From Nonomuraea zeae (lineage in GTDB: Bacteria > Actinomycetota > Actinomycetes > Streptosporangiales > Streptosporangiaceae), in NCBI RefSeq assembly GCF_005889725.1, contig NZ_VCKX01000007.1:47586-111585 (forward strand): DNA of 64,000 bases, written 5' to 3'. The notes under the pieces were generated by a model. That model was not told where the DNA came from and did not search any database. It saw only the letters and a list, made by a program, of their open reading frames with translations. A program made the position numbers and the translations under genes. How positions within the stretch are numbered: position 1 is the stretch's first letter; every line of letters begins with the position of its first letter. Below are positions 31,107 to 57,954 of the stretch, piece by piece.

Positions 31107-32165
31107 TCAGGCGAGGTTGAGCGCCGCCGCGGCGGCGTGGACGTCGATGGGGATGACGACCGGCGCCGGCGCGCCCGAGATGGCCCAGTCGGGGTCCTTC
31201 AGGCCGTTGCCGGTGACCGTGCAGACGATGCGCTGCCCCGGCTCGACCAGACCCTGCGCGTGGGCCTGCAGCAGGCCCGCGACGCTGGCCGCCGAGGCGA
31301 GCTCCACGAACACGCCCTCTTCCTGCGCCAGCAGTTTGTACGCGGCCGCGATCTGCCTGTCGGTCACCGCCTGGATGGTCCCGCCCGACTCGTCGCGAGC
31401 CGCGGTGGCCAGCTCCCACGACGCCGGGTTGCCGATGCGGATGGCGGTGGCGATCGTGTGCGGATGGACGACGGGCGCCCCCTCCACGATGGGCGCCGAG
31501 CCGCTGGCCTGGAAGCCGAACATGCGCGGCCGCTTCGACGACACGCCGTCGGCCGCGTATTCCTGGTAGCCCATCCAGTAGGCCGAGATGTTGCCCGCGT
31601 TGCCGACCGGGATGCAGTGGATGTCCGGCGCGTCGCCGAGCGTGTCGACGATCTCGAACGCGGCCGTCTTCTGTCCCTGCAGCCGGAACGGGTTGACCGA
31701 GTTGACCAGCGCGATCGGGTAGCTGGACGACAGCTTGCGGGTCATCTCCAGGCAGTCGTCGAACGACCCCTCGACCTGCAGCAGCGTGGCCCCGTGAACG
31801 AGCGCCTGGGCCAGCTTGCCCATGGCGATCTTCCCCTTGGGCACCAGCACGGCGCAGGTCAGCCCCGCGCGGACGGCGTAGGCCGCGGCCGAGGCGGAGG
31901 TGTTGCCGGTGGAGGCGCAGATGACCGCCTTGGCGCCCTCTTCGACCGCCTTGCTGATGGCCATCGTCATGCCGCGGTCCTTGAAGCTCCCCGTCGGGTT
32001 TGCCCCCTCGACCTTCAGGTAGACGTCGCACCCCGTGAGGGCCGAGACGCGGTACGCGGGCACCAGCGGCGTGCCGCCCTCGAGCAGCGTGATGACAGGC
32101 GTCTTCTCGGTCACAGGAAGACGTTCGCGGTATTCCTCGATGAGGCCACGCCACGACCTGCTCAT
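31107..32165 (-). CDS. thrC: Threonine synthase
   Basis: 352 residues, PLP enzyme converting O-phosphohomoserine to threonine. The PLP lysine lies in [16 protein letters not shown], and the phosphate-binding loop is [16 protein letters not shown]. This is the short class of ThrC usual in Gram-positive bacteria. In related genomes hom lies directly upstream; here it is 10.6 kb away behind the glycosyltransferase island. Confidence 0.96.
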
Positions 32166-32343
32166 GATGACTCCCTACCTGCGGTGTTGGGCACAGAGTG
32201 TACGGGGTGCGGGCGACCGTCGCGGAGCCGCGTCCACAGGTCGGACGCGCGGTCCCCCATCGACGGGACGGGTCATTGGACAGGGCCACTATTCAGGAAA
32301 TTCTCAGCATCTCCCGATAAGGTCTCGGCAGGGGGTCACCACG

Positions 32344-33816
32344 ATGAACGCGCGTCCTGCTTTGAGGCAGAACGACTATTCACCAATCGCGCCACCGCAG
32401 CTCGGCGCCTGGTCACCCGCCCTTTCCGTGAGCGTGGTGATACCCGCTCACGGCGGGCAGGACAAGCTCGGCCTGACGCTGGCGGCGCTGGCCGCGCAGA
32501 CCTACCCGGACCACCTCATGGAGGTCCTGGTCGTGGACGACGGCAGCGAGCCGCCGCTGCGGCTGCCCGAGATCCGGCCGGTCAACACCCGCGTCGTACG
32601 GGTGCGCGAGGGCTGGGGCATCTCCAACGCCGTCAACACCGGCGCCAAGGCGGCCGACGGCGAGATCATCCAGCGGCTCGACTCCGACATGGTGGCCTGC
32701 CGCGAGCACATCGAGGCGCTCGCGCGCTGGCACCACGTCACCGACTTCCTGGTCACGATCGGGATGAAGAAGTTCGTGGACGCGCCGCCCGTGAGCCCGC
32801 GGCAGGTGTTCCAGGCCGGGTCCCTGGGCGAGGTATTCGACCTGGCCGAGGCCGTGTCGAGCTCGACCGAGGCGACGATCGCCAAGACCGACGGGCTGCG
32901 CAAGAGCCGCAATCCGTACCACGTGTGCACCGGGCCCACCTTCGCGCTGCCCAGGGAGATCTTCCACGCCGTGGGCGGGCTCGACCCGACCGTGGCCAGA
33001 GGCGAGGACACCGAGTTCTCCTACCGGCTGGCCATGCACGGCGTGGTGTTCGTGCCCGACATGGACGCGCAGGCCGTGCACCTGGGGCTGCCCGCGCAGC
33101 ATCGTGACAGGGAGCGGGCCGTGCGCGCGGTCGAGCCGTACCTGGCGCATCGGATCCCGCTGCGCAGGGACCTGCGCAAGGAGCGGGGGCGGCGGTGGCT
33201 GGTGCCGTACGTGGAGATCGTCCTCGACGTCACGGACACCTCCGAGTCAGTGGTGCGGCAGGCGGTGTCGGCGGCGCTGGACGGCAAGTTGCAGGACGTC
33301 GTGGTGACGCTGGTCGGGCCGTGGTCGCGGCTGGACGACTCGCGGCGTTTCGCCCTGTCCGACCCGTGCTTCGAGCTGCGGCTGCTGCGTGACCTGTTCG
33401 CGCACGACGAACGCGTCCGCCTGATCGACGAGGCCGCGCCGACGCCCGCGCCCGTCCCCTTCCGCTACCGGGGGCCGGTGGACGTGCCGCTGCACCGGGC
33501 GACGCTGGAGCGCATGATCGAGTCGGTGCAGAAGGACCTGGCGGGGGTGCTGGTCGTGGACCTGCCCGACGGGCGCACGGCGCGCCTGGAGCGCACCTCG
33601 GCGCTCGGCCGCGCCGTCCTGCTCGCCGACGCCGGCGCGGACCTGGACGACCTCATCGACACCACCCACGGCGTACGCCACGAGCCGCCGGACCGGTTCT
33701 GGCCCGCGCCCGCGCAGCCCGAGCCGGTCACCATCCCCGCGCCGGTGCAGGTGGCCGTCGAATCGCCCGAGAAGACGCTGCTCAGACGCCTGAAGTCCGC
33801 CCTGCGCCCGAACTGA
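32344..33816 (+). CDS. GT2 glycosyltransferase A of the island (two-domain type)
   Basis: 490 residues. The N-terminal GT-A fold domain has the nucleotide-binding VVDDGS (about 62-67), the metal-binding RLDSDM (about 112-117) in place of DxD, and the acceptor motif GEDTEFSYRLA (about 220-230), followed by VHLG. From about residue 283 (WLVPYVEIVLD) a second domain shared with the GT2 genes at 33934, 37346 and 40887 runs to about 450. There is no signal peptide or membrane helix, so it acts in the cytoplasm or at the inner membrane face. AGGGGG precedes ATG 32344. Divergent from thrC. Sugar donor and acceptor are unknown. Confidence 0.85.
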   Translation: MNARPALRQNDYSPIAPPQLGAWSPALSVSVVIPAHGGQDKLGLTLAALAAQTYPDHLMEVLVVDDGSEPPLRLPEIRPVNTRVVRVREGWGISNAVNTGAKAADGEIIQRLDSDMVACREHIEALARWHHVTDFLVTIGMKKFVDAPPVSPRQVFQAGSLGEVFDLAEAVSSSTEATIAKTDGLRKSRNPYHVCTGPTFALPREIFHAVGGLDPTVARGEDTEFSYRLAMHGVVFVPDMDAQAVHLGLPAQHRDRERAVRAVEPYLAHRIPLRRDLRKERGRRWLVPYVEIVLDVTDTSESVVRQAVSAALDGKLQDVVVTLVGPWSRLDDSRRFALSDPCFELRLLRDLFAHDERVRLIDEAAPTPAPVPFRYRGPVDVPLHRATLERMIESVQKDLAGVLVVDLPDGRTARLERTSALGRAVLLADAGADLDDLIDTTHGVRHEPPDRFWPAPAQPEPVTIPAPVQVAVESPEKTLLRRLKSALRPN

Positions 33817-33849
33817 CCCACCGCCCGGGGCGCTCCGGGGCCCGGCCGG

Positions 33850-33954
33850 CCGCGCGGGCGTTCCCTAGTCAGCCGCGGGGGCGTCCCCGTTCGACCGCGC
33901 GGGCGTTCCCGACAGCCGCGCGGACGTTCTCGGTCAGCCGCGCAGGCGTTTGCG
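33850..33954. repeat. ~22-bp tandem repeat overlapping the 3' end of GT2 gene B
   Basis: About five imperfect units of 21-23 bases (minus-strand core AACGCCCGCGCGGC). The first unit contains the last codons and stop of the gene at 33934; the rest extend into the intergenic space toward the convergent GT2 gene A. Confidence 0.7.
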
Positions 33955-35598
33955 CAGGGCGCGTTTCATCGTGGAGGACACCAGGGCGCGCAGGCTCTGC
34001 TGGGCGCGGTTGGCGGCGGCGAGCTGGCGGCGCAGTGCGCCCACCTCGCGGCGCAGCTCCACGGCCGTCTTGCGCCAGCGCCCCGCCTCCTCCTTCCACT
34101 TGGCCACCTGGGCGCGCAGCCGCTCGGCCTCCTTGGCCTGCCTGGCCGCCTCGGCCTGCGCCTCCACGCGGGCCCGGTACGCCCCCCGGCGGCCGAGCGG
34201 AGGCGCGGGGTCGGTGGTGAACCCGTACGTTTCGGCCTCGACCCAGGAGACGCCCGACACCGCGTCGACCGCGTCGTCCAGGTCCTCGCCGTCGTCGGCC
34301 ACGATCCGGGCCCTGGCCAGCGCGGACGCCCGCTCCAGCCGGGCCGCGACCACGCCCTGTGACGACTCCTGGAGCAGCACGTTCACCAGCCCGAGTCCCT
34401 CGTCGCGAGCCAGGTCCAGCAGCCGGGCGAGGCTGTCCTCGCCCGGGATCCAGCCGGCCGGCAGGCGCAGCACGAACGGCACGGCCGGGTCGATGTCCTC
34501 GGCGGCGGCCAGCCGTACCCTGCCCTCGTGCCGGTAGTGGCCCTGGACCAGCACCAGGTCGAGATCGGGGTCCTGCAGCGGCGCGCGGCGCTCGCGCCCG
34601 ACGGTGTCCCACGGGCCGAGCAGGAGCACGGAGATGTCCGGCACGGTGCCGGCCAGCAGGCCGTCCACCGTGGCCCGCACGCTGTCGTAGCCGGCCGTGC
34701 CGTCCACCACGACGGTGACGTACGGGACCTTCCACTGCCGCCCCGGATGCCCGCGGAGCCAGCGGTAGGCCGGGATGCGGTCGGCCACGAAGGCGTGGCT
34801 CACCCGGTCGATGGGCTGCTTGTCGCGCATCCGCATGGTGGGGCCGAGGTGGTACGCGCAGGCCGCCGGCTCGGGCACGAAGACCGCGCCCGCCTGGCTC
34901 AGCCGGTAGCCCATCTCGGTGTCCTGGCCGAGTATCAGCTCGTCGTCCATCGGCCCGGCCGCCTCGATCAGCCGGGCGTTGACCGAGGTCGCGCCCCCGA
35001 CGTGCAGGCTGAACGGGCGCTGGGGATTGTCGGTGAGGCCGTCGGTGCGCTCGACGAGGTCCACGATCCAGGCGTGCGGCTCGGCCGGCTCGAAGTGCCG
35101 CTCCAGGTCGTCGGGCAGCTCGGCGGGCACCTCGGCGGCGGTGAACCTGATGTAGCCGGTCACGACCAGGTAGGGCGCGGCGTGGTGCCAGCGCATGTGG
35201 GCCTCGATCGCGCCCGGGGTGAGCACCACGTCGGAGTCGAGCCAGTGGATCACGTCGCCGGTGGCCGCGGCCAGGCCGGCGTTGCGGGCGTTGGCCCGGC
35301 CCGGCGTCGGGCACTCGATCAGGCGCGTCCCGGGCGGGCGCGTGGCAGGCAGGCGCAGCGGGGGCGTGCTGCCGTTGTCGACCACGATGACCTCGGTCAG
35401 CCCGGCCGGGTAGGTCTGCCTGGCCAGGCCCGCCAGCACCAGGTCCAGCTTGTCCTGGCCGCCGTAGGCCGGGATGACGACGCTGACCGTCAGCTCGGGG
35501 GTGAACCGCGCGGCCGGCCGCAGCACGCGATAGTCGTTGCCGCGCACCCTCGAAGCGCTCGCCGAGCCGTTCGCGACAGGTCCGTCACTCACCCTCAT
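33934..35598 (-). CDS. GT2 glycosyltransferase B of the island (two-domain type with C-terminal coiled coil)
   Basis: 554 residues. GT-A domain motifs: VVDNGS (about 71-76), HWLDSDV (about 116-121), GQDTEMGYRLS (about 224) and AYHLGP. The shared second domain runs from about residue 285 (WKVPYVTVVVDG) to 460, and a charged coiled coil from about 480 to 545 (Glu/Arg/Ala heptads) ends in a basic tail. ATG 35598 overlaps the stop of the upstream gene (ATGA), so the two are translationally coupled. A longer frame upstream is rejected. Confidence 0.85.
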   Translation of the reverse strand: MRVSDGPVANGSASASRVRGNDYRVLRPAARFTPELTVSVVIPAYGGQDKLDLVLAGLARQTYPAGLTEVIVVDNGSTPPLRLPATRPPGTRLIECPTPGRANARNAGLAAATGDVIHWLDSDVVLTPGAIEAHMRWHHAAPYLVVTGYIRFTAAEVPAELPDDLERHFEPAEPHAWIVDLVERTDGLTDNPQRPFSLHVGGATSVNARLIEAAGPMDDELILGQDTEMGYRLSQAGAVFVPEPAACAYHLGPTMRMRDKQPIDRVSHAFVADRIPAYRWLRGHPGRQWKVPYVTVVVDGTAGYDSVRATVDGLLAGTVPDISVLLLGPWDTVGRERRAPLQDPDLDLVLVQGHYRHEGRVRLAAAEDIDPAVPFVLRLPAGWIPGEDSLARLLDLARDEGLGLVNVLLQESSQGVVAARLERASALARARIVADDGEDLDDAVDAVSGVSWVEAETYGFTTDPAPPLGRRGAYRARVEAQAEAARQAKEAERLRAQVAKWKEEAGRWRKTAVELRREVGALRRQLAAANRAQQSLRALVSSTMKRALRKRLRG

Positions 35599-36668
35599 GC
35601 CGCTTCCATCAGCAGGCTCGGGCGGAAGCCGCGCCACTGGTTCGCCGCCACCTTGACGAAGTGGGCCAGCGGCAGCTGCCACGTGTGCTCGTCGCCGAGC
35701 CCTCTGCGCAGGACGTAGCCCAGCCCGTGGGTGCGGTAGACGCGGGCGCCGGCCTGCTGCGCCGCTTTCAGGAATTCAAGATCTACCGCCCGCGGCAACC
35801 CGGGAAATCCGCCTATTTCATGGAATTTCGCGCGAGGAAGCAAGATCGTGCCGCCTGCAACGTGATCGGCCCACACCTCGCTCGGATAACTCGCCCCGCT
35901 CGCGAACGTCGTGCGCCTGATCGTCGCCTTCAACGGCTCCAGGTAGAAGAACTCGGCCGTCGTGCCCACCACGTCGGCCTCCGCGTACGACAGGGCCATG
36001 AACAGGTCGGCCAGGTGGCGCGGGCCGTACCAGTCGTCGTCGTCCCACTTCGCCACGTAGTCGCCGCTCGCCAGGCCGGCGACCCGGTTGAGCACCTCGC
36101 CGAACGGCACGGACGCCTCCGCCTCGATCCACCGGACCGGCAGCGGGCAGGACTCCGCCGCCTCGCGCACCTGCTCGTACGCCACGCCGTGCAGCCCGAG
36201 CAGCACCTCGACCTCCACGTCGCGCTGGCGGCACATCTGGGCCAGCGCCGCGCCGGCCAGCCCTGGCCGCTTGGTCGACATGACGATGCTGATCTTCGGC
36301 TTGGGCGGGCGGTGGGCCAGGCGGCGCAGTCGTATGCTGTGCTCCTCGCGCCGCAGGTCGGCCAGGCAGCGCGCGGTGCCGTCGGCGGTGTGGCCGAGCC
36401 AGGCGTGGTCGGTGAGCAGCGCGGCGAGGTCGCCGGGCACCCAGGGCGCGGCCCGTTCCGCGGTCAGCGGAATTCCGGCGGCGGCCAGGCTCAGCAGGCC
36501 GTCCAGCGGCACCTCGGCCGCAGGCCACTCGATCTCCAGGCCACGCAGCGGGCGCAGCGCCGCGGCGTCGGGCGGCTCGCCGTCGACCGCCCAGCCGGTC
36601 TCGGCCCAGTGCAGACGGGCCAGCCCCTTCTCCGGCGTACGCGCGAAGCCGCAAGGGGTGACGGACAT
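35595..36668 (-). CDS. Glycosyltransferase with DDDDWYG motif
   Basis: 357 residues. A ~120-residue N-terminal domain is followed by a GT2-like catalytic region: STKRPGLAGAALAQ, then metal-binding WDDDDWYGP (about residues 206-213), then GGTILLPRAKFHEIGGF. The whole protein aligns with the C-terminal ~385 residues of the fusion protein at 38860 (shared LRREEHSIRLRR, RTHGLGY(V/I)LRRG and QWRGFRP motifs). First gene of a two-gene minus-strand operon with GT2 gene B. Donor and acceptor are unknown. Confidence 0.82.
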   Translation of the reverse strand: MSVTPCGFARTPEKGLARLHWAETGWAVDGEPPDAAALRPLRGLEIEWPAAEVPLDGLLSLAAAGIPLTAERAAPWVPGDLAALLTDHAWLGHTADGTARCLADLRREEHSIRLRRLAHRPPKPKISIVMSTKRPGLAGAALAQMCRQRDVEVEVLLGLHGVAYEQVREAAESCPLPVRWIEAEASVPFGEVLNRVAGLASGDYVAKWDDDDWYGPRHLADLFMALSYAEADVVGTTAEFFYLEPLKATIRRTTFASGASYPSEVWADHVAGGTILLPRAKFHEIGGFPGLPRAVDLEFLKAAQQAGARVYRTHGLGYVLRRGLGDEHTWQLPLAHFVKVAANQWRGFRPSLLMEAA

Positions 36669-36911
36669 GGGTGGGCGCTCCTCGACCGCTTGAGACTCAG
36701 TCGGCGCCTACCTTACGCCCCATTTACTAGCCGGTAGACGTGATGGTCACTTTCAGCAGGGAGCACCCGGGGATTCCCAGTTTTCCTCCAGGAACTTATG
36801 TCACGGTGGGGGCCGGAGTTTACTAGGGTGTCAATAATCCCTTGATGTCCGTGACGCCTGCGATGTCCGACAAGGTGCTGGCAAGGCGTGATCTACGAAA
36901 GGTATGCGCGG
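36669..36911. promoter_or_regulatory. Divergent promoter region of the two glycosyltransferase operons
   Basis: This 243-base, comparatively AT-rich spacer separates the divergent operons. The octamer TTTACTAG occurs twice (near 36723 and 36818). The second runs into TAGGGT, a plausible plus-strand -10, and the minus strand reads TTGACA just beyond it. A shared control region is inferred. Confidence 0.35.
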
Positions 36912-37349
36912 ATGCTATCGCCCCGCCGACTGGCAGCGACCGCCGCACTCCTCGCCGTCCTGGTCGCATGCGTGCTGGTGCTTCTCGTACTCGCAGATCT
37001 GATCACGTTCGGCGCCGCGGCGGCCGCGGCGGCGTTCCTGGTCTGCCTGGCCGCCCTGGCGTTCCTGCTGCTGTCCGTACGCCGTCTGGACGGCAAGGCG
37101 CAGCGGATCGACCTGCGGGTCAAGAAGCACGAGAGCGAGCTGGCCAGGACCACCACGGCGCTCAAGCGCATCGAGACCCGGCTGGACCTGCTCGTGCAGG
37201 CCGTCGAGGACTCCGCGGCGCGACGGGCCGACGACCTCGGCGCGATCCTGGCCTCGCTCGGGGAGGACCGGGTGAACGCCATGGCACGGGCGCGAGAGGT
37301 GGAGGAACTGCGCGCAGAGGTGCGCGCGCTGGCCAAGGACGCGGTGTGA
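36912..37349 (+). CDS. Small membrane protein with cytoplasmic coiled coil
   Basis: 145 residues. Two adjacent transmembrane helices (about residues 8-30 and 33-54) are followed by a ~90-residue Glu/Arg/Leu-rich coiled coil. ATG 36912 has GAAAGG 9 bases upstream; GTG 36888 would add eight residues. Its stop overlaps the start of the next glycosyltransferase (GTGTGA), so it is part of that operon. Not a named family; it could dock the soluble glycosyltransferases, which also have coiled-coil tails, to the membrane. That role is inference. Confidence 0.7.
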   Translation: MLSPRRLAATAALLAVLVACVLVLLVLADLITFGAAAAAAAFLVCLAALAFLLLSVRRLDGKAQRIDLRVKKHESELARTTTALKRIETRLDLLVQAVEDSAARRADDLGAILASLGEDRVNAMARAREVEELRAEVRALAKDAV

Positions 37350-38863
37350 CGCCCGCCCATGGCGGGCCGCGGGTCCGGCACAACGACTACGGGACGCTGC
37401 GCCCGCCCGCGATCGGGTCCTGGGAGCCGTCGCTGCGGGTGTCCGTGGTCATCCCGGCCTACGACTGCGCGGACGCGCTGGAGCGCACGATCCCGGCGCT
37501 CGCGCGGCAGACGTACCCCTCCGAGCTGGTCGAGATCGTGGTCGCGGACGACGGCAGCCGGCCGCCCATCGAGGTGCCGGGCGCCCGGGTCGTACGGGTG
37601 GCCGACGGGTGGGGGCGCGGCGCGGCCAGGCAGACGGGGCAGCTCGCGGCCACCGGCGACGTGATCCACTGGCTCGACTCCGACATGCTGCTGGCCGAGG
37701 ACCACCTTGAGGCGCACATGCGCTGGCACCACCTGATCGACCACGCGGTGGTGATCGGCGACACCCTGTTCGTGGACGAGCCGGGCGAGGAGGGGGTCCA
37801 GTCCGAGTACACGAGGAAGACCCTCGAGTCGACCAGGCGGCTCAAGGACGCGGGGGCGAGCGCGTACCTGTCGCACACGGGCGCGTCCACCTCCGTACGC
37901 GCCGAGCTGCTGCGCGCGGCGGGCGGCGTGGACACCGGGCTGAACATGGCCGAGGACACCGAGCTCGGCTACCGGCTGGCGCAGACGGGCGCGGTGTTCA
38001 TCTCCGACGCCGCGGCCAGGGCATGGCACGTCGGGCCCTCCACCGTGATGCTGCGGGAGAAGGAGGTGCACCGGCACAACTGGTCCTACCTGGGCGACCT
38101 CATCCCCGACCTGCGCTGGTTGCGCAACCATCCGCGGCGCAACTGGCTGGTGCCGTACGTGCGGGTCGAGGTGGCCGCGACGACGTACGAGCAGACGCGG
38201 GCGAGCGTGGACTCGGCGCTCGCGGGCACCCTCACCGACGCCGCCGTCACGCTCGTCGGCCCGTGGGGCAAGCTGACCGGCGAACGCCGGTCCAACCTCG
38301 ACGACCCGCTGCTCGACCTGCGGCTGCTGCACCATCTCTACGCTCATGAGCCCCGGGTCGTGTTCGCGGAGAGCGTACCCGCCACCGCCGCCCCCGCGCC
38401 CTTCCGACTCAGCCTGCCCACCGGGTGGGTGCTCGGCGCCGACACGCTCGCCAAGCTGGTCCGGCACGCCGACCGGGACCTGCTCGGGCTGGTCTGCGCG
38501 GCGCTGGCGGAGGACGCCGGCGGAGTCGTGACCGCCCGCCTGGAGCGCACGGCCGCCTTCGCCCGCGCCGCCCGGTTCGACGGGGCCGCCGACGACCTGG
38601 TCGACGAGATGTTCGGGGTCGAGTGGGTCAGCGGGGGCGAGTACGGCTTCGCCACGGCGGAGGAGGCCGAGCCGCTGGCCGGGGACCCCGCCAAGTGGCG
38701 TGCGCTGGCGGCGCAGCGGCTGGAGGAGGTCAAGGAGCTGCGCGCGGAGGTCGCCCGGCTCGCGGCCGAGGTCGAACGGCTCTCCGCCGAACCGCCCGCG
38801 GATACGGACGTGCCGCCCGGGCCGATCAAGTCGCTCATCAGGCACCTGCGGAGCGCCGGATGA
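37346..38863 (+). CDS. GT2 glycosyltransferase C of the island (two-domain type)
   Basis: 505 residues. GT-A motifs: VADDGS (about 66-71), HWLDSDM (about 108-114), AEDTELGYRLA (about 201-211) and AWHVGP. The shared second domain starts near residue 264 (WLVPYVRVEVA) and includes VGPWGKL, DPLLDLRL, PFRLSLPTGW and ARLERTAAFARA. A short coiled coil lies near 450-485. The GTG start at 37346 overlaps the previous stop, and its own stop overlaps the next ATG, so translation is chained through the operon. Confidence 0.85.
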   Translation: MTPAHGGPRVRHNDYGTLRPPAIGSWEPSLRVSVVIPAYDCADALERTIPALARQTYPSELVEIVVADDGSRPPIEVPGARVVRVADGWGRGAARQTGQLAATGDVIHWLDSDMLLAEDHLEAHMRWHHLIDHAVVIGDTLFVDEPGEEGVQSEYTRKTLESTRRLKDAGASAYLSHTGASTSVRAELLRAAGGVDTGLNMAEDTELGYRLAQTGAVFISDAAARAWHVGPSTVMLREKEVHRHNWSYLGDLIPDLRWLRNHPRRNWLVPYVRVEVAATTYEQTRASVDSALAGTLTDAAVTLVGPWGKLTGERRSNLDDPLLDLRLLHHLYAHEPRVVFAESVPATAAPAPFRLSLPTGWVLGADTLAKLVRHADRDLLGLVCAALAEDAGGVVTARLERTAAFARAARFDGAADDLVDEMFGVEWVSGGEYGFATAEEAEPLAGDPAKWRALAAQRLEEVKELRAEVARLAAEVERLSAEPPADTDVPPGPIKSLIRHLRSAG

Positions 38864-40890
38864 TCCGCCAGTTGCTGGCGGAGCTGCGCGGCGCCCCGGT
38901 GTTCCTCGCCGGGATCGACGACGTCGAGCCCGTCTACGCCGATGCCGCCGGCCAGGACGGGCCGGCGCGTGTCGTCGACCTCGACCGGGACCTGCTGGAG
39001 GCGCCCGCCACGGTCGGCCGGGCACGTGAGGTGCTCGTGCTCGCCAGGACGCCCGCCGACCTGCGCAGGATCGCGACGCTGCACAAGCTGCTGCCGGAGG
39101 CCGAGCGGGTGGTGGTCGCGGTGCTCGACACGCCCGCCTCCCATCCCGCACCCGTGCCCACGCCGACGCCCGCCCACCGGTGGCGGTCGCTGACGGATCT
39201 GCGGGTCTACCAGCCCAAGAGCCGCGTGTGGGTGGTGGACGCCCGCTTCTCCGGGCCCACGCCCGCCGGGCGTACGGTCACGGCCACGGCACGGGCCTTC
39301 GCCGGGCACCGCCTGGACGTGATCGCGGCCCCCGCGGCGGCGATCGCGGGCGTCGGTGCCGCGAACTGGCGTCCAGGGGACCCCAACGCGACGCCCGCCG
39401 AAGTGACCGGGCCGGTGCCGGACCGCGTGGGGGCGCCGGGCAGCGACATGGTCCTGCGTACGACGCTCGGCCACGCCCCCTCCGACGACGCCGCCGGCAC
39501 CGGGGTTCCCGAGCCCGGCGCCGTACAGAACGCCCCCGAGACCGCCACCGCCGAGGGGAACGGGACGCTCGCCTGGGACGGGGAGGCGGCCGAGTGGGCC
39601 GGTGACCAGACGCCCATCGAGCGGCCCGCCCTCGCCGCGGCGAGCTGGGAGCGGCTCGGCCGTCCCGGCATGGCGGACTCGCCGCTGGCCGACCCCGACG
39701 TGCTGGGCGAGCCGTCGATGGTGCCGCCCGTGGACGAGCGGCTGGTCAACCCCCAGGGCTTCGTCACCACCCCGTCACGCGGCATGGCGTCCCTGGCCGA
39801 GCGCGACGGTCGCTGGTCGGTGCTGCTGGACGGCAAGGTCGTGACGTCGTTCGCGGAGTCCGGCGGGGTCACCGACGCGGACGTGTCCAGGCTGCGGCAG
39901 ATCCGCGGCGTCGAGGTGGACTGGCGGCACGCCCACAGCGGCCCGCTGGCCGCGGTCCGGGTGCTGGCGGGACTGGCCGCCGCCGGAGTCCCGCTGGTGG
40001 CGGACGCGGTGCCGCGATGGGCCGGAGCACTGGGTGACGACATCGTCGAGCTCATCGAGCGCTGCCCGGACCTTTCCGACGAGCTGCGGCGGGAGGAGCA
40101 CAGCATCCGGCTGCGCCGCGCCGCCCTGCGCACCCATGGCGTGGCCGCCCGGTGGGAGCAGCTCGGCGCCCCCGCTCCCGCGCCGCCGCTCACCTCGGTC
40201 CTGCTCGCCACGCGCCGCACCGACATGGTGGCCTTCGCGCTCGACCAGATCGCCCGCCAGCGCGAGGTCCAGCTCGAAGTGATCCTCGCCCTGCACGGCG
40301 TCCCGCAGGGACATCCGGACGTGGCGGCCGCGATCGCCGGGTTCGAGGGGCCGCTGACCGTGTTCGAGGCCGACCACCAGGCCGTCTTCGGCGAGGTGCT
40401 GAACGAGGCCGCCGCCAGGGCCTCCGGCTCGTTCCTGCTGAAGATGGACGACGACGACTGGTACGGGCCCGACTTCCTGGCCGATCTGCTGCTCGCGCAC
40501 TCGTACTCAGGGGCCCAGGTGGTCGGCACCGTGCCGGAGTTCGTCTACCTGTCCTCGATCGACGTCACCGTGCACCGCAGGCAGGTCACCGAGCAGATCA
40601 CCAGCTTCGTGGCGGGTGGGACGATCCTGGTGGAGCGGTCGGCGTTCCAGGCGGTGGGCGGGTTCAGGCCGCTGCGGCGCTCGGTGGACACCCAGTTCCA
40701 GGAGGCGCTGCAGGCGGCGGGCGGGCAGATCTACCGTACGCACGGGCTCGGCTACATCCTGCGCAGAGGCCCGGCGGCCAACCACACGTGGCAGGAGCCG
40801 ATCGGCACGTTCCTGCAGCGCAACAGGCAGCAGTGGCGCGGCTTCCGCCCGAACGCCCTGATGGCCATGGACGGACACCTGCACCCATGA
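38860..40890 (+). CDS. Fusion glycosyltransferase: novel N-terminal domain plus DDDDWYG-type transferase
   Basis: 676 residues. Residues 1-~185 look like an alpha/beta (Rossmann-like) domain that I do not recognise. Residues ~185-290 are a Pro/Ala/Gly-rich linker. From ~290 the protein is a paralogue of the gene at 35595 (NPQGF start, LRREEHSIRLRR, then MDDDDWYGP at about 528-536, and RTHGLGYILRRG). ATG 38860 overlaps the previous stop and its stop overlaps the next ATG (ATGA both times). A two-step or regulated transferase is possible; the function is unknown. Confidence 0.8.
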   Translation: MIRQLLAELRGAPVFLAGIDDVEPVYADAAGQDGPARVVDLDRDLLEAPATVGRAREVLVLARTPADLRRIATLHKLLPEAERVVVAVLDTPASHPAPVPTPTPAHRWRSLTDLRVYQPKSRVWVVDARFSGPTPAGRTVTATARAFAGHRLDVIAAPAAAIAGVGAANWRPGDPNATPAEVTGPVPDRVGAPGSDMVLRTTLGHAPSDDAAGTGVPEPGAVQNAPETATAEGNGTLAWDGEAAEWAGDQTPIERPALAAASWERLGRPGMADSPLADPDVLGEPSMVPPVDERLVNPQGFVTTPSRGMASLAERDGRWSVLLDGKVVTSFAESGGVTDADVSRLRQIRGVEVDWRHAHSGPLAAVRVLAGLAAAGVPLVADAVPRWAGALGDDIVELIERCPDLSDELRREEHSIRLRRAALRTHGVAARWEQLGAPAPAPPLTSVLLATRRTDMVAFALDQIARQREVQLEVILALHGVPQGHPDVAAAIAGFEGPLTVFEADHQAVFGEVLNEAAARASGSFLLKMDDDDWYGPDFLADLLLAHSYSGAQVVGTVPEFVYLSSIDVTVHRRQVTEQITSFVAGGTILVERSAFQAVGGFRPLRRSVDTQFQEALQAAGGQIYRTHGLGYILRRGPAANHTWQEPIGTFLQRNRQQWRGFRPNALMAMDGHLHP

Positions 40891-42590
40891 CCGGCATCCC
40901 CAGCATTCCCAGCATCCCCCGCATCCGCCGCAACGACTTCGGCGTGCTCACCCCGCCCGCCCTCGGCGAATGGGAGCCCTCGCTCGCCGTCACCGTCGTC
41001 ATCCCGGCCCACGACCGCCAGGAGACGCTGGACCTGACGCTCGCGGCCCTGTCCGCGCAGAGCTACCCCGAGCACCTGCTCGACGTCGTGGTCGTGGACG
41101 ACGGCAGCAGCACGCCGCTGCAGCTGCCCGAGCTCGTCCCGGCCAGGACCAAGCTGATCTCCAGCCCGCCGGGCGGCTGGGGCCGGGCCTGGGCCGTGCA
41201 GGCGGGGCTGGACACGGCGACGGGCGACGTCCTGTTCGTCCTGGACGCCGACATGGTCCCGCACCGGCACCACGTGGAGGCCCAGCTCCGCTGGCACCAC
41301 CTGGCCCCGTACGTGGTGGCGCTGGGCTGGATCGACTTCACCGCGGCCGTCGAGCTGCCGGGGCAGGAGGAGGTCCGGCACGCGCTGGAGACGGGCGCGG
41401 AGGAGGCGCTCTTCCCCCTGTCGCCGCAGCGCCACGACTGGGCCGAGCAGATCATCGAGGACCACGACGGCCTCCGCACGGCTCCCAGCTCCCTGGCCAC
41501 CCGCATCCACGTGGGCGCCACGGCGTCGTACCCGGTGCGGCTGCTGCGCTCGATCGGCGGCCTGGACACGTCGCTGGTGCTGGCCGAGGACACGGAGCTG
41601 GGCTACCGCCTGACCCAGGCGGGCGTGGTCTTCGTCCCCGACCCGCAGTCCAGGGCCTGGCACGTCGGCCTGCCCACGGCGATGCGCGACTTCCAGGCGC
41701 TGAAGCGCTACAACGACCCCTACGTGGCCGATCGGGTCCCCTACCGCCGGTATCTGCGTACCGAGGCGGGCCGCCAGTGGCTGGTGCCGTACGTGGACGC
41801 GGTATTGCCCGCGGGCGGGTACGAGGACGTACGGGCCACGGTGGACGCCCTCCTGGCCGGCTCGCTCCCGGACGTCCGGGTCACCGTCACCGGCGAGTGG
41901 GACTCCCTGACCGCCGATCGCCGCTCCCCTCTCGCCGACCCGCACCTCGACCTGCGCCTCACCCACGCCTGCTTCCACCACGACCCCCGCGTCAACCTGG
42001 CCGCCGCCCAGGCCGCCCCGCCGCCGGGGACGCCCCCGTTCCGCCTGTCCCTCCCGCCGGGCTGGACCCTCGCGAAGGACACGCTGGAACGGCTCGTGGC
42101 CCACATGGAGGAGCACGACCTCGGAGCCCTGTGCGTGGCGCTGGAGGAGACCGAGCGGGGCGTGACGGTGGCCCGCCTGGAGCGGACGGCGGCGCTGTCC
42201 AGAGCCGCGCTGGTGGCCGCGCCCGGCGACCGGCCGGACGACCTGATCGACGCCTTGTTCGGCCTGGAGTGGGTGGACGGGGAGACGTACGGCTTCAAGC
42301 GCCGCCCGGCCGTCTACCCGCCGCGCAGGAAGCCCGTCCCGGAGATCGACCGGCTCGCCGCCGAGCATGACAAGGAGATCGCCCTCTACCGCAAGCGCAC
42401 GGCGGCGCTGCGGGCGGAGATCTCGCAGCTGCGCAGGGAGGCGGGCAAGAACGGCAGGGACGCGGCACGCTGGCGGGAGAAGGCGGAAGCCTGGCGCAAG
42501 GAGGCGGTCAGGCTCGCCCGCGCCCAGAACCGAACGGTGCTCAAGCGCGCCGTCCGCCGGGTCCGCGGCCTGGCCTTCCCCGACGACTGA
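40887..42590 (+). CDS. GT2 glycosyltransferase D of the island (two-domain type with coiled coil)
   Basis: 567 residues. The N-terminus carries an IPSIPSIPRI stretch from a 9-base repeat. GT-A motifs: VVDDGS (about 69-74), VLDADM (about 117-122), AEDTELGYRLT (about 233) and AWHVGLP. The shared second domain runs from about 295 (WLVPYVDAVLP) to 470, followed by a coiled coil (about 490-545) and a basic C-terminus. Last gene of the operon (membrane protein, GT2 C, fusion, GT2 D), all with overlapping stops and starts. It converges on hom. Confidence 0.85.
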   Translation: MTGIPSIPSIPRIRRNDFGVLTPPALGEWEPSLAVTVVIPAHDRQETLDLTLAALSAQSYPEHLLDVVVVDDGSSTPLQLPELVPARTKLISSPPGGWGRAWAVQAGLDTATGDVLFVLDADMVPHRHHVEAQLRWHHLAPYVVALGWIDFTAAVELPGQEEVRHALETGAEEALFPLSPQRHDWAEQIIEDHDGLRTAPSSLATRIHVGATASYPVRLLRSIGGLDTSLVLAEDTELGYRLTQAGVVFVPDPQSRAWHVGLPTAMRDFQALKRYNDPYVADRVPYRRYLRTEAGRQWLVPYVDAVLPAGGYEDVRATVDALLAGSLPDVRVTVTGEWDSLTADRRSPLADPHLDLRLTHACFHHDPRVNLAAAQAAPPPGTPPFRLSLPPGWTLAKDTLERLVAHMEEHDLGALCVALEETERGVTVARLERTAALSRAALVAAPGDRPDDLIDALFGLEWVDGETYGFKRRPAVYPPRRKPVPEIDRLAAEHDKEIALYRKRTAALRAEISQLRREAGKNGRDAARWREKAEAWRKEAVRLARAQNRTVLKRAVRRVRGLAFPDD

Positions 42591-42742
42591 CGCCGTGGCT
42601 CCTAGGCGTCAGTGTCCTTGGGGTGCCGGGTGGATGCCTGAACGAGGTGGACGGTCCGCCGTTCGGCGTCGACGAGATGGCGCACCCGCCCTCCGGCGGT
42701 GACCTCGCACCGTGGCCTCATCCGGCAGGGGGAACAGCCGGC

Positions 42743-44032
42743 TCAGTCGTCGCCCTCCACGCGCATCACGCTCGCCACCGCGCGCACGATGTCGAGGTCC
42801 CGGAGCTCCTCCATGGTCGCCGACAGCGCGGCGTCCGTGGCCCGGTGGGTGACGATGACGAGCTGGGCGTCGTCCCCCCGCCCTTCCTGGCGTACGGTCT
42901 GGATCGACACGTCGTGCTTGGCGAACAGGTCCGCGACCCGCGCCAGCACGCCCGGCTTGTCGGCCACGTCCAGCGCCACGTGGCAGCGGGTCACGGTCTC
43001 GCCCATCGGGTGCGCCACGAGATCGGCGTACGTGGACTCCTCCGACCCGCGCGTGCCCGCCAGGCGGTTGCGGGCGACGGCCACCAGGTCCCCCAGCACG
43101 GCCGAGGCCGTGGGGGCGCCGCCGGCGCCCTTGCCGTAGAACATGAGCTGCCCCGCCGACTCCGCCTCGACGAAGACCGCGTTGTACGCCTCCCGCACCC
43201 CCGCCAGCGGGTGCGAGCGCGGGATCATCGCCGGGTGCACCCGCACCCCGAAGGAGCGGCCGTCCTCCGAGCGGGCGCAGATGGCCAGCAGCTTGATGAC
43301 GTAGCCCATCGCCTTGGCCGAGGCCACATCGGTGGCGGTGATCTCGGTGATGCCCTCGCGGTGCACCTCGGCGGCCGTGACGCGGCTGTGGAAGGCGAGC
43401 CCGGCGAGGATGGCCGCCTTGGCGGCGGCGTCGAAGCCCTCGACGTCGGCCGTCGGGTCGGCCTCCGCGTAGCCGAGCGTCTGGGCCTCCTCCAGGGCGT
43501 CGGTGAAGGACGCGCCCGTGGAGTCCATCTTGTCGAGGATGTAGTTGGTGGTGCCGTTGACGATGCCGAGCACCCGCTTGACGTGGTCGCCGGCCAGCGA
43601 CTCGCGCAGGGGACGCAGCAGCGGGATGGCCCCGGCCACGCTCGCCTCGAAGTAGAGGTCGCCGTTGCCGGTCCGCGCGGCCTCGTGCAGGGTGGCGCCG
43701 TCCTCGGCCAGCAGCGCCTTGTTGGCGGTGACCACCGACTTGCCCTTGGACAGGGCGGCCACGATCAGCGAGCGAGCGGGCTCGATGCCGCCGATGACCT
43801 CGATCACGATGTCCACGTCGTCGCGGGTGACCAGGGCCTCCGCGTCGGTGGTGAGCAGCGCGGGGTCCACGTCGATGTCACGTTTGCGGCCCAGCCGCCG
43901 CACCGCGACCCCGGCCAGCTCCAAGGGCGCGCCGATGCGGGCGGCCAGATCGGCGGCCTGCTCGTGCATGAGCCTGATGACCTGCGAGCCGACGACGCCG
44001 CAGCCCAGAAGAGCCACTTTCAGCGGTTTCAC
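42743..44032 (-). CDS. hom: Homoserine dehydrogenase
   Basis: 429 residues, reduces aspartate semialdehyde to homoserine. Seen: N-terminal NAD(P) loop [10 protein letters not shown], the active-site region [29 protein letters not shown], and a C-terminal ACT domain (about residues 345-429) that usually mediates threonine feedback. The start is a GTG overlapping the lysA stop (GTGA). Normally followed by thrC; here it is followed by the glycosyltransferase island. Confidence 0.96.
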
Positions 44033-45411
44033 AGCTGCCCCCTCAAGAGATCGTCCTCGGTCTCACCCTGCACGATCACCCGGGCGACGCCGCCCGAGAC
44101 GGCCACCACGGCGGGCCTGGGCAGGTAGTTGTAGTTGCTGGCCAGCGAGCGGCAGTAGGCGCCGGTCGAGGCCACGGCGATCAGGTCGCCCGGGGCGAGG
44201 TCGGCGGGCAGGTGGAAGTCGCGCACGATGATGTCGCCGCTCTCGCAGTGCTTGCCGACCAGGCGGCTGAGCATGGGCTCGGCCTGGCTCTCGCGGCTGG
44301 CCAGCACGGCGGTGTATTCGGCGCCGTAGAGCGCCGTGCGCACGTTGTCGCTCATGCCGCCGTCGATGCTCACGTAGGTGCGCAGCCCCTCGACGTCCTT
44401 GACCGTGCCGACCTGGTAGAGGGTGATCCCGCCCGGGCCGACGATGGTGCGGCCGGGCTCCACGGTCAGCCGGGGCACGGGCAGCCCCGCGTCCACGCAC
44501 ACCTTGGTGACGATCTCGCGCAGGCCGTCGGCCAGCTCCTTGATGTCGGGCGCCTCTTCGCCTTCGACGTAGGCGATGCCGTAGCCGCCGCCCAGGTCCA
44601 GCTCGGGCAGCACCACGCCGTGCTCGTCCTTGATCTGCACGAGCAGCGTGGCCAGCCGCCGCGCCGCGACCTCGAACCCGGCCGTGTCCACGATCTGCGA
44701 GCCGATGTGCGAGTGCAGCCCGACCAGCTCCAGCTGCGGGAGGGCGAGAATCCTGCGTACGGCCTCGGCCGCCGCCCCGGTGTTGAGCGACAGCCCGAAC
44801 TTCTGGTCGTCGTGCGCCGTCGCGATGAACTCGTGCGTGTGCGCCTCGACCCCGGTGGTGACCCTGATCATCACCTTGGGCCGGAGACCGCGCTGCTCGG
44901 CGAGGTAGCCGAGCCGGGTGATCTCCTCGTAGGAGTCGACCACGATGTGCCCGACCCCGGCCTCCAGGGCCCTGGTGAGCTCGGCGACGGACTTGTTGTT
45001 GCCGTGCATCGTGATGCGCTCGGGCGGGAACCCGACGCTGAGGGCGACCGCCAGCTCCCCGCCGCTGGCCACGTCGAGCCCGAGGCCCTCGTCCTGGAGC
45101 CAGCGGACGATCTCCTTGCACAGGAACGCCTTGCCGGCGTAGTGGACGTCGGAGTCGGCGAACGCCGTCGCGTAGTCGCGCATGCGCGAGCGCACGTCGT
45201 CCTCGTCGAGGACGTAGAGGGGCGTGCCGTGGTCACGGGCCAGGTCACGCACGTCCACTCCGCCGACCGTGAGCGTGCCGTCGGTCCGGGCCGACGTTCG
45301 GGGCCAGATCGCGGGATTGATCCGGTTGAGGTCGGCGGGCGCCAGCGGCGGGCGCTCGTGGGGCAGCATCTCGGCGTGCCGGTCCCCGGCGGGATGGGCG
45401 AATCGACTCAC
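44029..45411 (-). CDS. lysA: Diaminopimelate decarboxylase
   Basis: 460 residues, PLP enzyme making lysine from meso-diaminopimelate. Seen: PLP lysine Lys94 in [16 protein letters not shown], the HIGSQI segment, VEPGRTIVG and catalytic Cys in CESGDII. GTG 45411 is my choice; ATG 45369 is a possible shorter start, and neither has a strong ribosome site. Upstream lies a DALR-domain protein instead of the usual argS. Confidence 0.95.
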
Positions 45412-45535
45412 CCGATCGAGGCTATCGGAACAGCCACTCTGCCATGACCCGGTGCCCACGTATCGAGACGCGATCAAGCCTCAGGAGGGATATTTTTACG
45501 ATTTTTCGCCGTTTAGCCGGATATTTTGCAATTCA

Positions 45536-46159
45536 TCACAGCCGGTCCGGGCCCATCAGCACTCCGCGCACGGCCCGCGCGAGCCGCACCCGCGCCGTGT
45601 GCACCGCCCCCGGCGGCTCGTCCCCGACCGGCACGGCGGGCGCGTGCTCGTGCGCGTCGTGGTAGGCCAGCGCCAGCCGCACCAGGTACGTCTCCCACCC
45701 CGGCTCCCGGCTGACCAGCCGCCCGGGCAGCTCGGCCAGCACCCGCAGCACCCCGCGGTCGTACGGATCCGACAGCAGCCCCGGGCTGAACCCCTCCTCC
45801 GGCACCCCCAGCTCGCCGGCCCACCGCAGCACGGCGCAGGCCCGCGCGTGCCCGTAACGAACCACGAACCCGGGGTTCTCCCAGGTGCGCGGAAAGTCCG
45901 GCCAGCCGGGCTCCGGGATCGCGACCGGCTCGAAGGACTCCAGCAGCTCCCCCGGCACGCTCACCACGATCCGCAGGAAGCCCCGCTCGCCGACCTCCAC
46001 CCCGGCGACGCCGGCCAGCGCCCGCACCCGGTCGGCCAGCGGCTCGGCCGGGATGCGCCGCCGCAGGGCCGCCGCGGAGACGTACACGGCCTCCCGCTCC
46101 CACGTGCCCTCGGGCGCGGGCGGCTCCCCCAGGATCTCGGCCAGCTCGCCAGGCGTCAT
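45536..46159 (-). CDS. Stand-alone DALR anticodon-binding-domain protein (ArgS C-terminus-like)
   Basis: 207 residues. The C-terminal half resembles the anticodon-binding domain of arginyl-tRNA synthetase (VVRYGHARACAVLRWA corresponds to the Y-A-HAR-x-C/S-x-L-R motif, and the end VRGVLMGPDRL to the ArgS terminus). The N-terminal part resembles an additional-domain-1 fold. The catalytic HIGH and KMSKS motifs are absent, so it cannot be a synthetase. In related actinobacteria argS or such a paralogue precedes lysA. A tRNA-binding or regulatory role in Arg/Lys metabolism is possible. Confidence 0.7.
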   Translation of the reverse strand: MTPGELAEILGEPPAPEGTWEREAVYVSAAALRRRIPAEPLADRVRALAGVAGVEVGERGFLRIVVSVPGELLESFEPVAIPEPGWPDFPRTWENPGFVVRYGHARACAVLRWAGELGVPEEGFSPGLLSDPYDRGVLRVLAELPGRLVSREPGWETYLVRLALAYHDAHEHAPAVPVGDEPPGAVHTARVRLARAVRGVLMGPDRL

Positions 46160-46184
46160 GGCGACGACCCTACGACGGGGCCCG

Positions 46185-48029
46185 TCAGATGAACGCGTGC
46201 GGCTCGGCGGAGCCGTACTCGACCAGCTGGGCGGCGCCCAGCAGCCAGCGGTCCTCGTCGCGTACCCGCACGTATCCGAACCGGTCCGCCGAGAACACCT
46301 TGATCCCGTCCGTGCGGCACTGCCGCATGAGCACCTCGTCCCAGCCCTCGGTGAGGTCGGCGAAGCCCAGCTCGCGCAGCGCGTTCCTGCGGGCGATGAG
46401 GGTGGCCCCGTTGATCTCCGGGAGGTAGGCGTACTCGGCGTCGGGCTGCTTGAGCAGCGTGGCCTGGGGCTTGCGCAGGTGGGCGTAGAAGGCGGCCTTG
46501 CCGACGATGTCGGCGGTGCTGAACAGGAAGGCCCGCCGCAGGTCGGACAGGTAGTGCGAGCCGTAGACGTCGCGCGGGTCCATGACCGCGACCAGGTCGG
46601 CCTCGCACAGGTCGATGCCGGCGTTGAGCATGGCGCCCTCGGTCATCGCCGGGTGCGGGCGGCGGTAGACGACGTCGACGTCCGGCAGCACGTCGCGGGC
46701 CCGCAGCTCGGCCTCGGGCGGCCCGATGACGATGAGCTGGTCCACGCCCGACTGCTTGGCGACCTGGGCGAGCCCGTGCTCCATCAGGAACGGGTCGAGG
46801 ATCGGCAGCATGACGGAGGTGTTGAGGGTGGCGCGGGCGCTGGGCAGGCCGATCGCCTCCAGCAGCTCGTCCACGCGCTCGGTCATCGTGCCCATCCCGT
46901 ACGCCCTGCGCAGCGCCACGTGCGCCCGCCGGGTGTCGGCCTCGGTGCCGATGGGCGTGCCGCAGGCGGCGATCTCGGCCAGCCGCCACTGCGGCGTGCC
47001 GGGCGGGCAGTCGGCCGCGGCCGGCCAGCGGTAGGAGGTCAGCACGTCGGGGTAGCGCAGGTGGCCGGGCAGGAGCTGGTCGAGCGTGAGCACCCGGTCG
47101 ATGCGCCCGCCGGCCAGCGGCAGCGGGTTGTGCACTCGGGGCTGGACCCCGAACTGCAGGCGCGGCCAGGACACCGTCAGATCGGTGGTGAAGCGGTGCT
47201 CGAACAGCTCGGCCGCCGCCGCGTAGGCCGCGACGTCGCCCTGGGTGTGCCAGAAGACCGTGCGGATGCCGCGCTCGGCGCACCACGCCAGCAGCGCCTT
47301 GAGCCCCTCGCCCGGCTCGCCGGTGATCTCCTGCACCCACGGGCCCTCGGTGACGGACTCGACCACGAGCAGGTGGGGCACCTCCAGCGGGAGCACCCTG
47401 GCGAAGTCACGCGGCGTGAAGCCGGTCGTCTGCCGCCACTCGTAGCGCAGCAGCGCCTCGGCGTGCGGGTCGGCGATCACCGCGGCGGTCAGGTGGGGCC
47501 GGGTGTTGGGGCCGGTCGGCACCCGGAAGGGCCTGAGCTTGAACGAGGCGCCCCCGAGCGTCCTGGTGGTACTGGTGGCCTGGTACGCCGCTCCCGGGCG
47601 CTCATCCTTGGCCTTGTCCGCGGCCACGGGCCTGCGCTTGGGCGCGGTGGGCCGCTTGACCGGCTTGGCCGCGCCCCTGAGGCCCTTGGCCAGGCGCATC
47701 GGGTTGTTCTTGCCGCTCTTGATGGCGTCGCCGAGCCGGTTCCAGCGGGCGACCTTGATCGAGGACAGCTTCCAGTTGGCGACCTCGGCCTGGAAGCGCT
47801 GCTCGGCCAGCTCCTTGCGGAGCTTGTCGGCGGCGGCCTGCTCGGCCGCGAGCCGTTCCTCGGCCTCGCCGAGCTGCTCGGCCAGCGCTTTGACCTCCTC
47901 GGCGCTCTGCTCGGCCGCGGCCAGCTTGGCCTGGGCGGCGTCCAGCAGCCTGGCCAGCTCCGCTGCGCGCTCAGCCTGCGCGACGGCATCCCGCAACGCC
48001 CGGCGTGTGCTCTCAAGCTCGATAGACAA
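46185..48029 (-). CDS. CgeB-like / GT2-like bifunctional glycosyltransferase with N-terminal coiled coil
   Basis: 614 residues. Residues 1-~95 form an Ala/Glu coiled coil; 100-150 is a basic linker. Residues ~200-390 resemble CgeB-type glycosyltransferases (HLLVVES, then GIRTVFWHTQGDV, then FTTDLTV). Residues ~400-614 are related to the DDDDWYG transferases of the island, but the motif reads MDPRDVYG (about 481-488), so metal binding may be altered. The start is a TTG at 48029 with a GGAGG ribosome site 6 bases upstream; the frame is open far beyond, but that part is antisense to the AsnB-like gene. Confidence 0.75.
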   Translation of the reverse strand: MSIELESTRRALRDAVAQAERAAELARLLDAAQAKLAAAEQSAEEVKALAEQLGEAEERLAAEQAAADKLRKELAEQRFQAEVANWKLSSIKVARWNRLGDAIKSGKNNPMRLAKGLRGAAKPVKRPTAPKRRPVAADKAKDERPGAAYQATSTTRTLGGASFKLRPFRVPTGPNTRPHLTAAVIADPHAEALLRYEWRQTTGFTPRDFARVLPLEVPHLLVVESVTEGPWVQEITGEPGEGLKALLAWCAERGIRTVFWHTQGDVAAYAAAAELFEHRFTTDLTVSWPRLQFGVQPRVHNPLPLAGGRIDRVLTLDQLLPGHLRYPDVLTSYRWPAAADCPPGTPQWRLAEIAACGTPIGTEADTRRAHVALRRAYGMGTMTERVDELLEAIGLPSARATLNTSVMLPILDPFLMEHGLAQVAKQSGVDQLIVIGPPEAELRARDVLPDVDVVYRRPHPAMTEGAMLNAGIDLCEADLVAVMDPRDVYGSHYLSDLRRAFLFSTADIVGKAAFYAHLRKPQATLLKQPDAEYAYLPEINGATLIARRNALRELGFADLTEGWDEVLMRQCRTDGIKVFSADRFGYVRVRDEDRWLLGAAQLVEYGSAEPHAFI

Positions 48030-48101
48030 ACTGGACCTCCGCTTCCTCAGCCCGGCAAAGGATACTCTTTTGCGGGAAGCGTCTCGAAGGGATGAGATCC
48101 G

Positions 48102-51734: not shown

Positions 51735-51748
<14 letters not shown>

Positions 51749-53998: not shown

Positions 53999-54002
<4 letters not shown>
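51735..54002 (-). CDS. MacB/FtsX-type ABC transporter permease
   Basis: 755 residues. An N-terminal helix and a large extracytoplasmic domain are followed by three transmembrane helices (about residues 250-360), a cytoplasmic linker, and a second half with one helix, another extracytoplasmic domain and three C-terminal helices. This is two FtsX repeats in one chain. Such permeases usually work with a LolD-like ATPase on hydrophobic or cell-envelope substrates. Its 3' end overlaps that of treS by 14 bases (convergent). Its start overlaps the ATPase stop (ATGA). Confidence 0.9.
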
Positions 54003-54723
<721 letters not shown>

Positions 54724-54727
<4 letters not shown>

Positions 54728-57943: not shown

Positions 57944-57954
57944 GAGGTAAGGCC

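Follow-up and report, generated by a model that had tools for sequence, protein, structure and literature searches.

The locus described here occupies the interval between hom (homoserine dehydrogenase) and thrC (threonine synthase) of Nonomuraea zeae, within a 64,000-nucleotide stretch of contig NZ_VCKX01000007.1, hereafter called the window, to whose positions all coordinates refer. Both flanking genes belong to the host operon and are read from the minus strand, with hom (42743–44032, PF00742) on the 5′ side of the insertion and thrC (31107–32165, PF00291) on its 3′ side. Seven genes, hereafter the island, lie between the thrC start at 32165 and the hom end at 42743. Four of them code for GT2 glycosyltransferases, namely g1 (32344–33816, plus strand, PF00535 with E 3e-18), which combines a first GT-A domain with a degenerate second one, g2 (35598–33934, minus strand, E 2.5e-20), with a tail that is coiled-coil-like by composition, g4 (37346–38863, plus strand, E 8.6e-20) and g6 (40887–42590, plus strand), whose predicted model shows a pair of GT-A domains together with a coiled-coil tail. 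Two further transferases carry a DDDDWYG motif: g3 (36668–35595, minus strand), which has a GT-A core and an ATGA overlap with g2, and g5 (38860–40890, plus strand), which in alignment with g3 is about 290 residues longer at its N-terminus. PF00535 was above the cut-off in all six proteins in the Pfam scan, barely so in g3 (23.4 vs 23.3 bits). The seventh gene, gcc (36888–37349, plus strand), codes for a membrane protein with a hydrophobic N-terminal segment and a coiled-coil tail judged by composition, and no Pfam family matched it over the cut-off. The four GT2 proteins are mutually 40–44% identical, and g3 and g5 share 42% identity over 392 residues. Within the N. zeae genome g6 has eight matches, of which four fall inside the island and four others do no better than E 6e-10, and g5 is the sole close match of g3. 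The boundaries and the seven-gene content (four GT2 proteins, two DDDDWYG proteins and a membrane coiled-coil protein) had been proposed in an earlier note on this DNA and are borne out by the rechecked coordinates, the Pfam scan and the alignments.

No transposase or integrase family was matched among the seven genes in the Pfam scan, no transfer RNA (tRNA) gene was found in the whole window, and the island is not bracketed by any of the repeats listed (17 direct families and 25 of 27 inverted pairs), the long ones being similarity between paralogues; the same note's remark that transposase, integrase and flanking repeats are absent is therefore confirmed by the Pfam scan and the repeat listing. 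Between positions 29500 and 50500 nothing reached the Rfam gathering score, and between 32000 and 48200 two terminator-like sites were observed vs 2.0 expected. The divergent intergenic region between thrC and g1 (32166–32343) contains a TAcACT-like element about 30 nucleotides (nt) before the thrC ATG, which recurs in an alignment of 20 loci and is suggested to be a candidate promoter of thrC's own. The strength of this suggestion is limited since the scan for the sigma-70 consensus found no promoter-like site from 32000 to 48200 (0 observed vs 0.2 expected).

The spacing of the two host genes was surveyed in 121 genomes of the order (N. zeae among them), an even sample of a larger set, in which thrC and hom were located. 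A thrC match was present in 120 of them and the gap was measured in 115; the remaining six comprise five genomes with the genes on different contigs and the one without a thrC match. The two genes share one strand in all 115 genomes, and their gaps fall into two separate classes, 44 genomes at 2847–23833 bp and 71 at 31–404 bp, with no value between 404 and 2847 bp. No genus is mixed: each measured genus falls entirely in the long class (13 genera) or entirely in the short one, so that the long gap occurs in all 44 measured genomes of the 13 genera (N. zeae and 43 others). The earlier claim that hom and thrC are normally neighbours agrees with the 71 of 71 measured genomes from the other genera of the order. 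A gap of 2.8–16.9 kb was also found in 58/58 of the named loci holding both hom and thrC; as these 58 are among 80 loci (the best of 178) that were retrieved via g3 and are thus biased, the 121-genome survey is the sample independent of the choice of the island. By the named loci, the long class includes Nonomuraea, Thermoactinospora, Streptosporangium, Planobispora, Planomonospora, Microbispora, Microtetraspora, Sphaerisporangium and their kin. The family label of the surveyed genomes spans long- and short-gap genera alike, and we infer that the long class corresponds to Streptosporangiaceae sensu stricto. Another Nonomuraea genome (locus L091, genome G118), with about 13 kb of extra genes between g6 and hom, has the widest gap observed, 23.8 kb. 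A second threonine synthase, 63% identical, is encoded in the N. zeae genome (G000:C660:15235-16260), and a second match is also present in three of the seven other sampled genomes of the genus.

The earlier note had taken the insertion for a mobile unit, and a gene content that varies among relatives, with blocks present or absent, would fit a recent mobile island. It is opposed by the occupation of the same site in all 44 measured genomes of 13 genera with no mixed genus, by the lack of mobility genes, tRNA and bracketing repeats described above, and by paralogue groups that run across genera. We rejected this explanation on the retention at the site and the missing mobility genes, tRNA and repeats, and regard it as extremely improbable. 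The relatives all carry the island, which speaks against mobility; the outgroups do not, and the transferases co-occur elsewhere, which speaks for a functional set.

By profile as well as by fold, the best solved structure for the GT2 proteins is the K4 chondroitin polymerase K4CP of Escherichia coli (PDB 2z86/2z87), with 16–19% identity, the matched entries being complexes with UDP-N-acetylgalactosamine (UDP-GalNAc) and UDP-glucuronic acid (UDP-GlcUA). K4CP has two active GT-A domains on one chain. The K4CP-like overall fold of two GT-A domains is present in the predicted model of g6, the only one in which it was seen. In the first GT-A domain both the DxD motif and the aspartate of the ED/QD/GD motif are found in 35/35 alignment rows. 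The equivalents of DDGS and DxD are absent from the second domain in 35/35 rows, the place of the motifs resting on the model and on MAFFT alignment. The island GT2 proteins differ from K4CP in a second domain without donor motifs and in a coiled-coil tail, which in the g6 model is a single helix at residues 486–563. Relatives of g6 at E≤1e-30 were detected in 5/197 genomes of the phylum, N. zeae included, and loci were retrieved from three of the other four (L166, L167 and L168), with G283 left out.

The g6 model also matches polypeptide GalNAc-transferases among the solved structures. This match favours another explanation, in which the targets of the set are secreted or surface proteins, or pili or an S-layer, with the GT2 proteins acting on polypeptide acceptors, as does the PMT_2 gene, similar to protein O-mannosyltransferases, that Microbispora loci carry in the same slot. 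We consider it unlikely.

The DDDDWYG motif is strongly conserved, with D209–D212, W213 and Y214 of g3 invariant in 21/21 rows and D530–D533, W534, Y535 and G536 of g5 invariant in 26/26. The GT-A catalytic core is common to these proteins, Bacillus SpsA and AvpGT-type transferases, although the similarity is remote and both island proteins bear long regions before the core (about 120 residues in g3 and about 415 in g5). The PDB kin of g3 are AvpGT and, weakly, SpsA, and a fold search with the low-confidence model of g5 retrieved general GT-A folds only. A protein search with g5 gave at least 250 matches at E≤1e-20, and among the 120 matches listed the names were glycosyltransferase or hypothetical protein. 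In gcc the hydropathy peak (3.17) falls at residues 21–39, the tail contains no proline and is rich in E, K, R, A, L and Q, and a hydrophobic segment is present in 64/64 gcc-like predicted proteins.

SpsA is a spore coat polysaccharide enzyme and the family of the named island loci is known for its sporangia, which would be consistent with a locus decorating spores or the sporangial sheath and not the vegetative wall. However, the SpsA match (E 0.013) is a general GT-A similarity, and genera that lack the island also have related second loci, so we find such a role rather improbable.

The transferase genes are closely paired. In the named loci, and with starts taken from the gene caller, directly neighbouring genes on one strand overlap by 1–10 nt in 58/74 cases for g3–g2, 33/44 for g5–g6, 36/40 for g4–g5 and 38/42 for gcc–g4. 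Outside the island, in 14 second loci hand-picked for retrieval, a DDDDWYG gene adjoins a GT2 gene in every case, so the co-occurrence that the note asked to test holds for neighbours elsewhere too. A GT2–TagF gene (PF04464) directly follows the pair in L132 and L143 and stands one gene further in L133, giving three of the 14 loci, part of which were scanned; L134 has a gene resembling it in size and position. L135, L136, L137 and L139 carry genes of the Methyltransf_24 and SGNH acyltransferase kinds, assigned through clustering with the L136 copies, which were scanned. As for the distant actinobacterial loci, an ABC-2 permease is found in two of three: in L168 it adjoins the GT2 relative together with an ATP-binding cassette (ABC) ATPase, in L167 it lies with a UDP-sugar dehydrogenase about 7–8 kb from the GT2 relative, and L166 has three GT2 and three DDDDWYG genes with no permease among the genes inspected. 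In the N. zeae genome itself (L157, contig C752), a set of NeuB, Polysacc_synt_2 and cytidylyltransferase genes adjoins a gene for an 877-residue GT2–TagF fusion, and this nonulosonic-acid-type set suggests an acidic wall polymer.

The history of the paralogues was followed in trees of 88 GT2 rows and 51 DDDDWYG rows, built by a quick method and with the groups read among the rows listed; their labels come from the best BLAST match to the window genes and are partly circular. In the GT2 tree g1, g2 and g4 form one group each (support 96, 100 and 100), and g6 forms one group except for L103_g6, which lies outside, and needs two changes. In the DDDDWYG tree g3 forms one group (100/100) and g5 needs three changes. 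One very long row, L133_sec8666, is of uncertain placement. The groups point to paralogues that probably split before the genera did. A recent tandem duplication of the GT2 genes is not supported by the tree.

The content of the slot varies. Among the 44 island genomes g1 occurs in 43, g2 in 35, g3 in 34 and g4 in 20, while g5 and g6 occur in the same 23 and are both absent from the other 21. The count of gcc is 18 at the 60-bit cut, which is an undercount, and 23 with the weaker gcc-like genes of G006, G014, G021, G032 and G040. Genes g3 and g2 are found together in 33 of the 36 genomes having either. Scraps of the missing blocks were sought between hom and g3 in the 37 named loci with hom and g3 that do not hold the full g4–g5–g6 set. 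N. candida (L014) retains a 33-residue g6 remnant (E 7e-12) and N. pusilla (L019), in the order expected, a g6 tail (E 2e-4) with a gcc head (E 7e-5); full-length g5- and g6-like genes are present in L045 and L059, and in 33/37 loci nothing was found at E≤1e-3. Because of the g6 and gcc scraps in L014 and L019, at least two of the absences look like losses. A polysaccharide deacetylase family lies between hom and thrC in 55/59 loci, named and unnamed loci pooled. Other slot genes, each family (the deacetylase too) judged from one scanned representative, are PMT_2, DUF2079, phosphoesterase, AftA-like, major facilitator superfamily (MFS), methyltransferase and Vgb lyase genes, of which PMT_2, DUF2079 and AftA-like, like the deacetylase, are of envelope-glycan types.

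Nonomuraea species are rich producers of specialised metabolites, so a cluster for metabolite glycosylation that drifted into the operon may be thought of; but no scaffold-forming enzyme was matched among the seven genes by Pfam and retention across 13 genera is unlike such a cluster, and we hold this explanation to be very unlikely.

The reading we favour, with medium confidence, is that the island is an ancestral, vertically inherited locus that assembles or decorates a cell-wall glycopolymer, in which neighbouring transferase pairs are predicted to extend a lipid-linked chain by alternating sugars at the cytoplasmic face of the membrane. The ancestor shared by the 13 genera would have acquired a glycosyltransferase cluster between hom and thrC, and thrC would have gained its own promoter. 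In each GT2 protein the first GT-A domain would transfer one sugar and the second, no longer binding a donor, would serve as a scaffold or acceptor clamp, with the DDDDWYG partner supplying the other sugar and the coiled-coil tails and gcc holding the enzymes at the membrane. The alternating role of each pair is presumed from K4CP with its two active domains on one chain. Precursors, polymer backbone and export would come from loci elsewhere in the genome, and lineages may alter the polymer through the loss or gain of blocks in the hom–thrC slot.

Several observations weigh against this reading. By Pfam, none of the seven genes is a TagF-type polymerase, an exporter or a sugar-nucleotide gene, including those for uronic sugars; a self-contained system, as the earlier note had it, is not supported, and its proposed surface-glycan role is backed by several second-locus neighbourhoods that point to surface glycans. 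The three PF04464 genes of N. zeae lie on other contigs, Pfam does not assign the ABC/FtsX pair at 51735–54745 to the ABC-2 type, and a second close g3–g2 or g5–g6 pair was not found in this genome, so that the link to a teichoic-type polymer rests on relatives. In L167 the DDDDWYG similarity beside the GT2 gene is weak (65 residues, E 1e-5), and the predicted model of g5 has a predicted local distance difference test (pLDDT) score of 66. Pairing is not obligatory, given that g1 has no partner and that G033, G083 and G103 each contain just one of g3 and g2; G059 has no g1, and the g5 and g6 rows each fail to form one group in the trees. Some slot genes (Vgb lyase, WxL, MFS and methyltransferases) are not obviously glycan-related, and g7, a gene beyond lysA described below, is missing from both genomes of the genus labelled g21.

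A more specific proposal, which we put forward as doubtful though conceivable, is that each DDDDWYG–GT2 pair is a split chondroitin-polymerase-like machine, the second active site of the GT2 protein being dead and its activity supplied in trans by the DDDDWYG partner. The group would then have fixed up to two split polymerases and a solo GT2 between hom and thrC, and would diversify its surface polymer by losing or swapping modules.

Among known systems, the Streptomyces utr locus is comparable by description. According to PMC13274773, it directs a teichuronic-acid-like polymer on wall teichoic acid, which is a receptor for umbrella toxins, and UtrG and UtrF are proposed to alternate in making a disaccharide repeat. 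The likeness lies in the fixed genomic site, the variable transferase set and the predicted alternating pair. As described there, the utr locus differs in its site near the ribosomal L21/L27, TagF and TarIJ genes, in having its own sugar-nucleotide genes, and in UtrC and UtrF being TarS- and TarM-like. TagF-like capsule polymerases, as presented in PMC5974469, have a GT-A or GT-B domain attached; a K4CP-modelled GT-A joined to TagF recalls the GT2–TagF genes near three of the related pairs, whereas the seven island genes are without a TagF domain. Among open-licence papers no title on a hom–thrC glycosyltransferase locus was found, and the accessible text of the Planobispora rosea paper PMC8269224 makes no mention of “homoserine”.

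Upstream of hom lie lysA (44029–45477, minus strand, PF02784/PF00278) and a gene for an NrtL-type ArgS-related anticodon-binding protein (45536–46159, minus strand; NF045898 with E 6e-18 and 65 bits, below the cut-off of 340), which separates lysA from g7 (48026–46185, minus strand). The g7 protein has a coiled-coil-like N-terminus and a transferase-like C-terminus in which DPRDVYG replaces DDDDWYG; this C-terminal portion is distantly related to g3 (27% over 225 residues). At E≤1e-40, g7 was found in 45/47 genomes of the island genera, always on the contig of hom and within about 19 kb of it, and four other genomes have the C-terminal part only. Searched against the PDB, a profile of 17 rows (alignment A4) found nothing beyond weak GT-A matches, the best with E 0.011. 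The CgeB-like identity once assigned to this gene was rejected, as a library that detected PF13524 in other proteins gave no match to it here at E≤1. A g7 paralogue (29%) in L158, on contig C395 of N. zeae, adjoins a UDP-GlcNAc 2-epimerase gene near a UDP-sugar dehydrogenase gene.

Divergent from g7 is a gene for an AsnB-like ATP-dependent ligase (48102–49736, plus strand, PF00733 with E 6.6e-5). The AsnB-like assignment made earlier stands as far as this match and the SGGYDS motif (SGG-DS ATP pyrophosphatase loop), kept in 21/21 orthologues, are concerned, but not for the glutaminase nucleophile Cys2, which is absent from 21/21 orthologues with starts from the gene caller. Cys10 is invariant in 14 aligned rows, and the profile of these rows matched only NH3-dependent NAD synthetase (E 0.032); the protein is possibly an ammonia- or amine-using ligase. 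Elsewhere in the window, 18897–21116 (minus strand) codes for a protein of 739 amino acids with long Thr/Gly/Asp-rich repeats and no Pfam match at E≤1e-4, coinciding with a strong AT skew at 19–21 kb, and 57850–59331 (plus strand) places an ABC sugar-permease domain in frame after CarboxypepD_reg/SdrD_B-like domains, which would be an unusual fusion provided that the start is correct.

If the favoured reading is true, the hom–thrC slot would be a fixed, genome-readable locus setting the surface polymer of this actinobacterial group, with a logic comparable to that of the Streptomyces utr locus. The two-protein transferase module with its predicted dead second domain could, if real, reveal the relation between a one-chain polymerase and a two-enzyme system, and the rearranged core operon is a marker of the 13-genus group.

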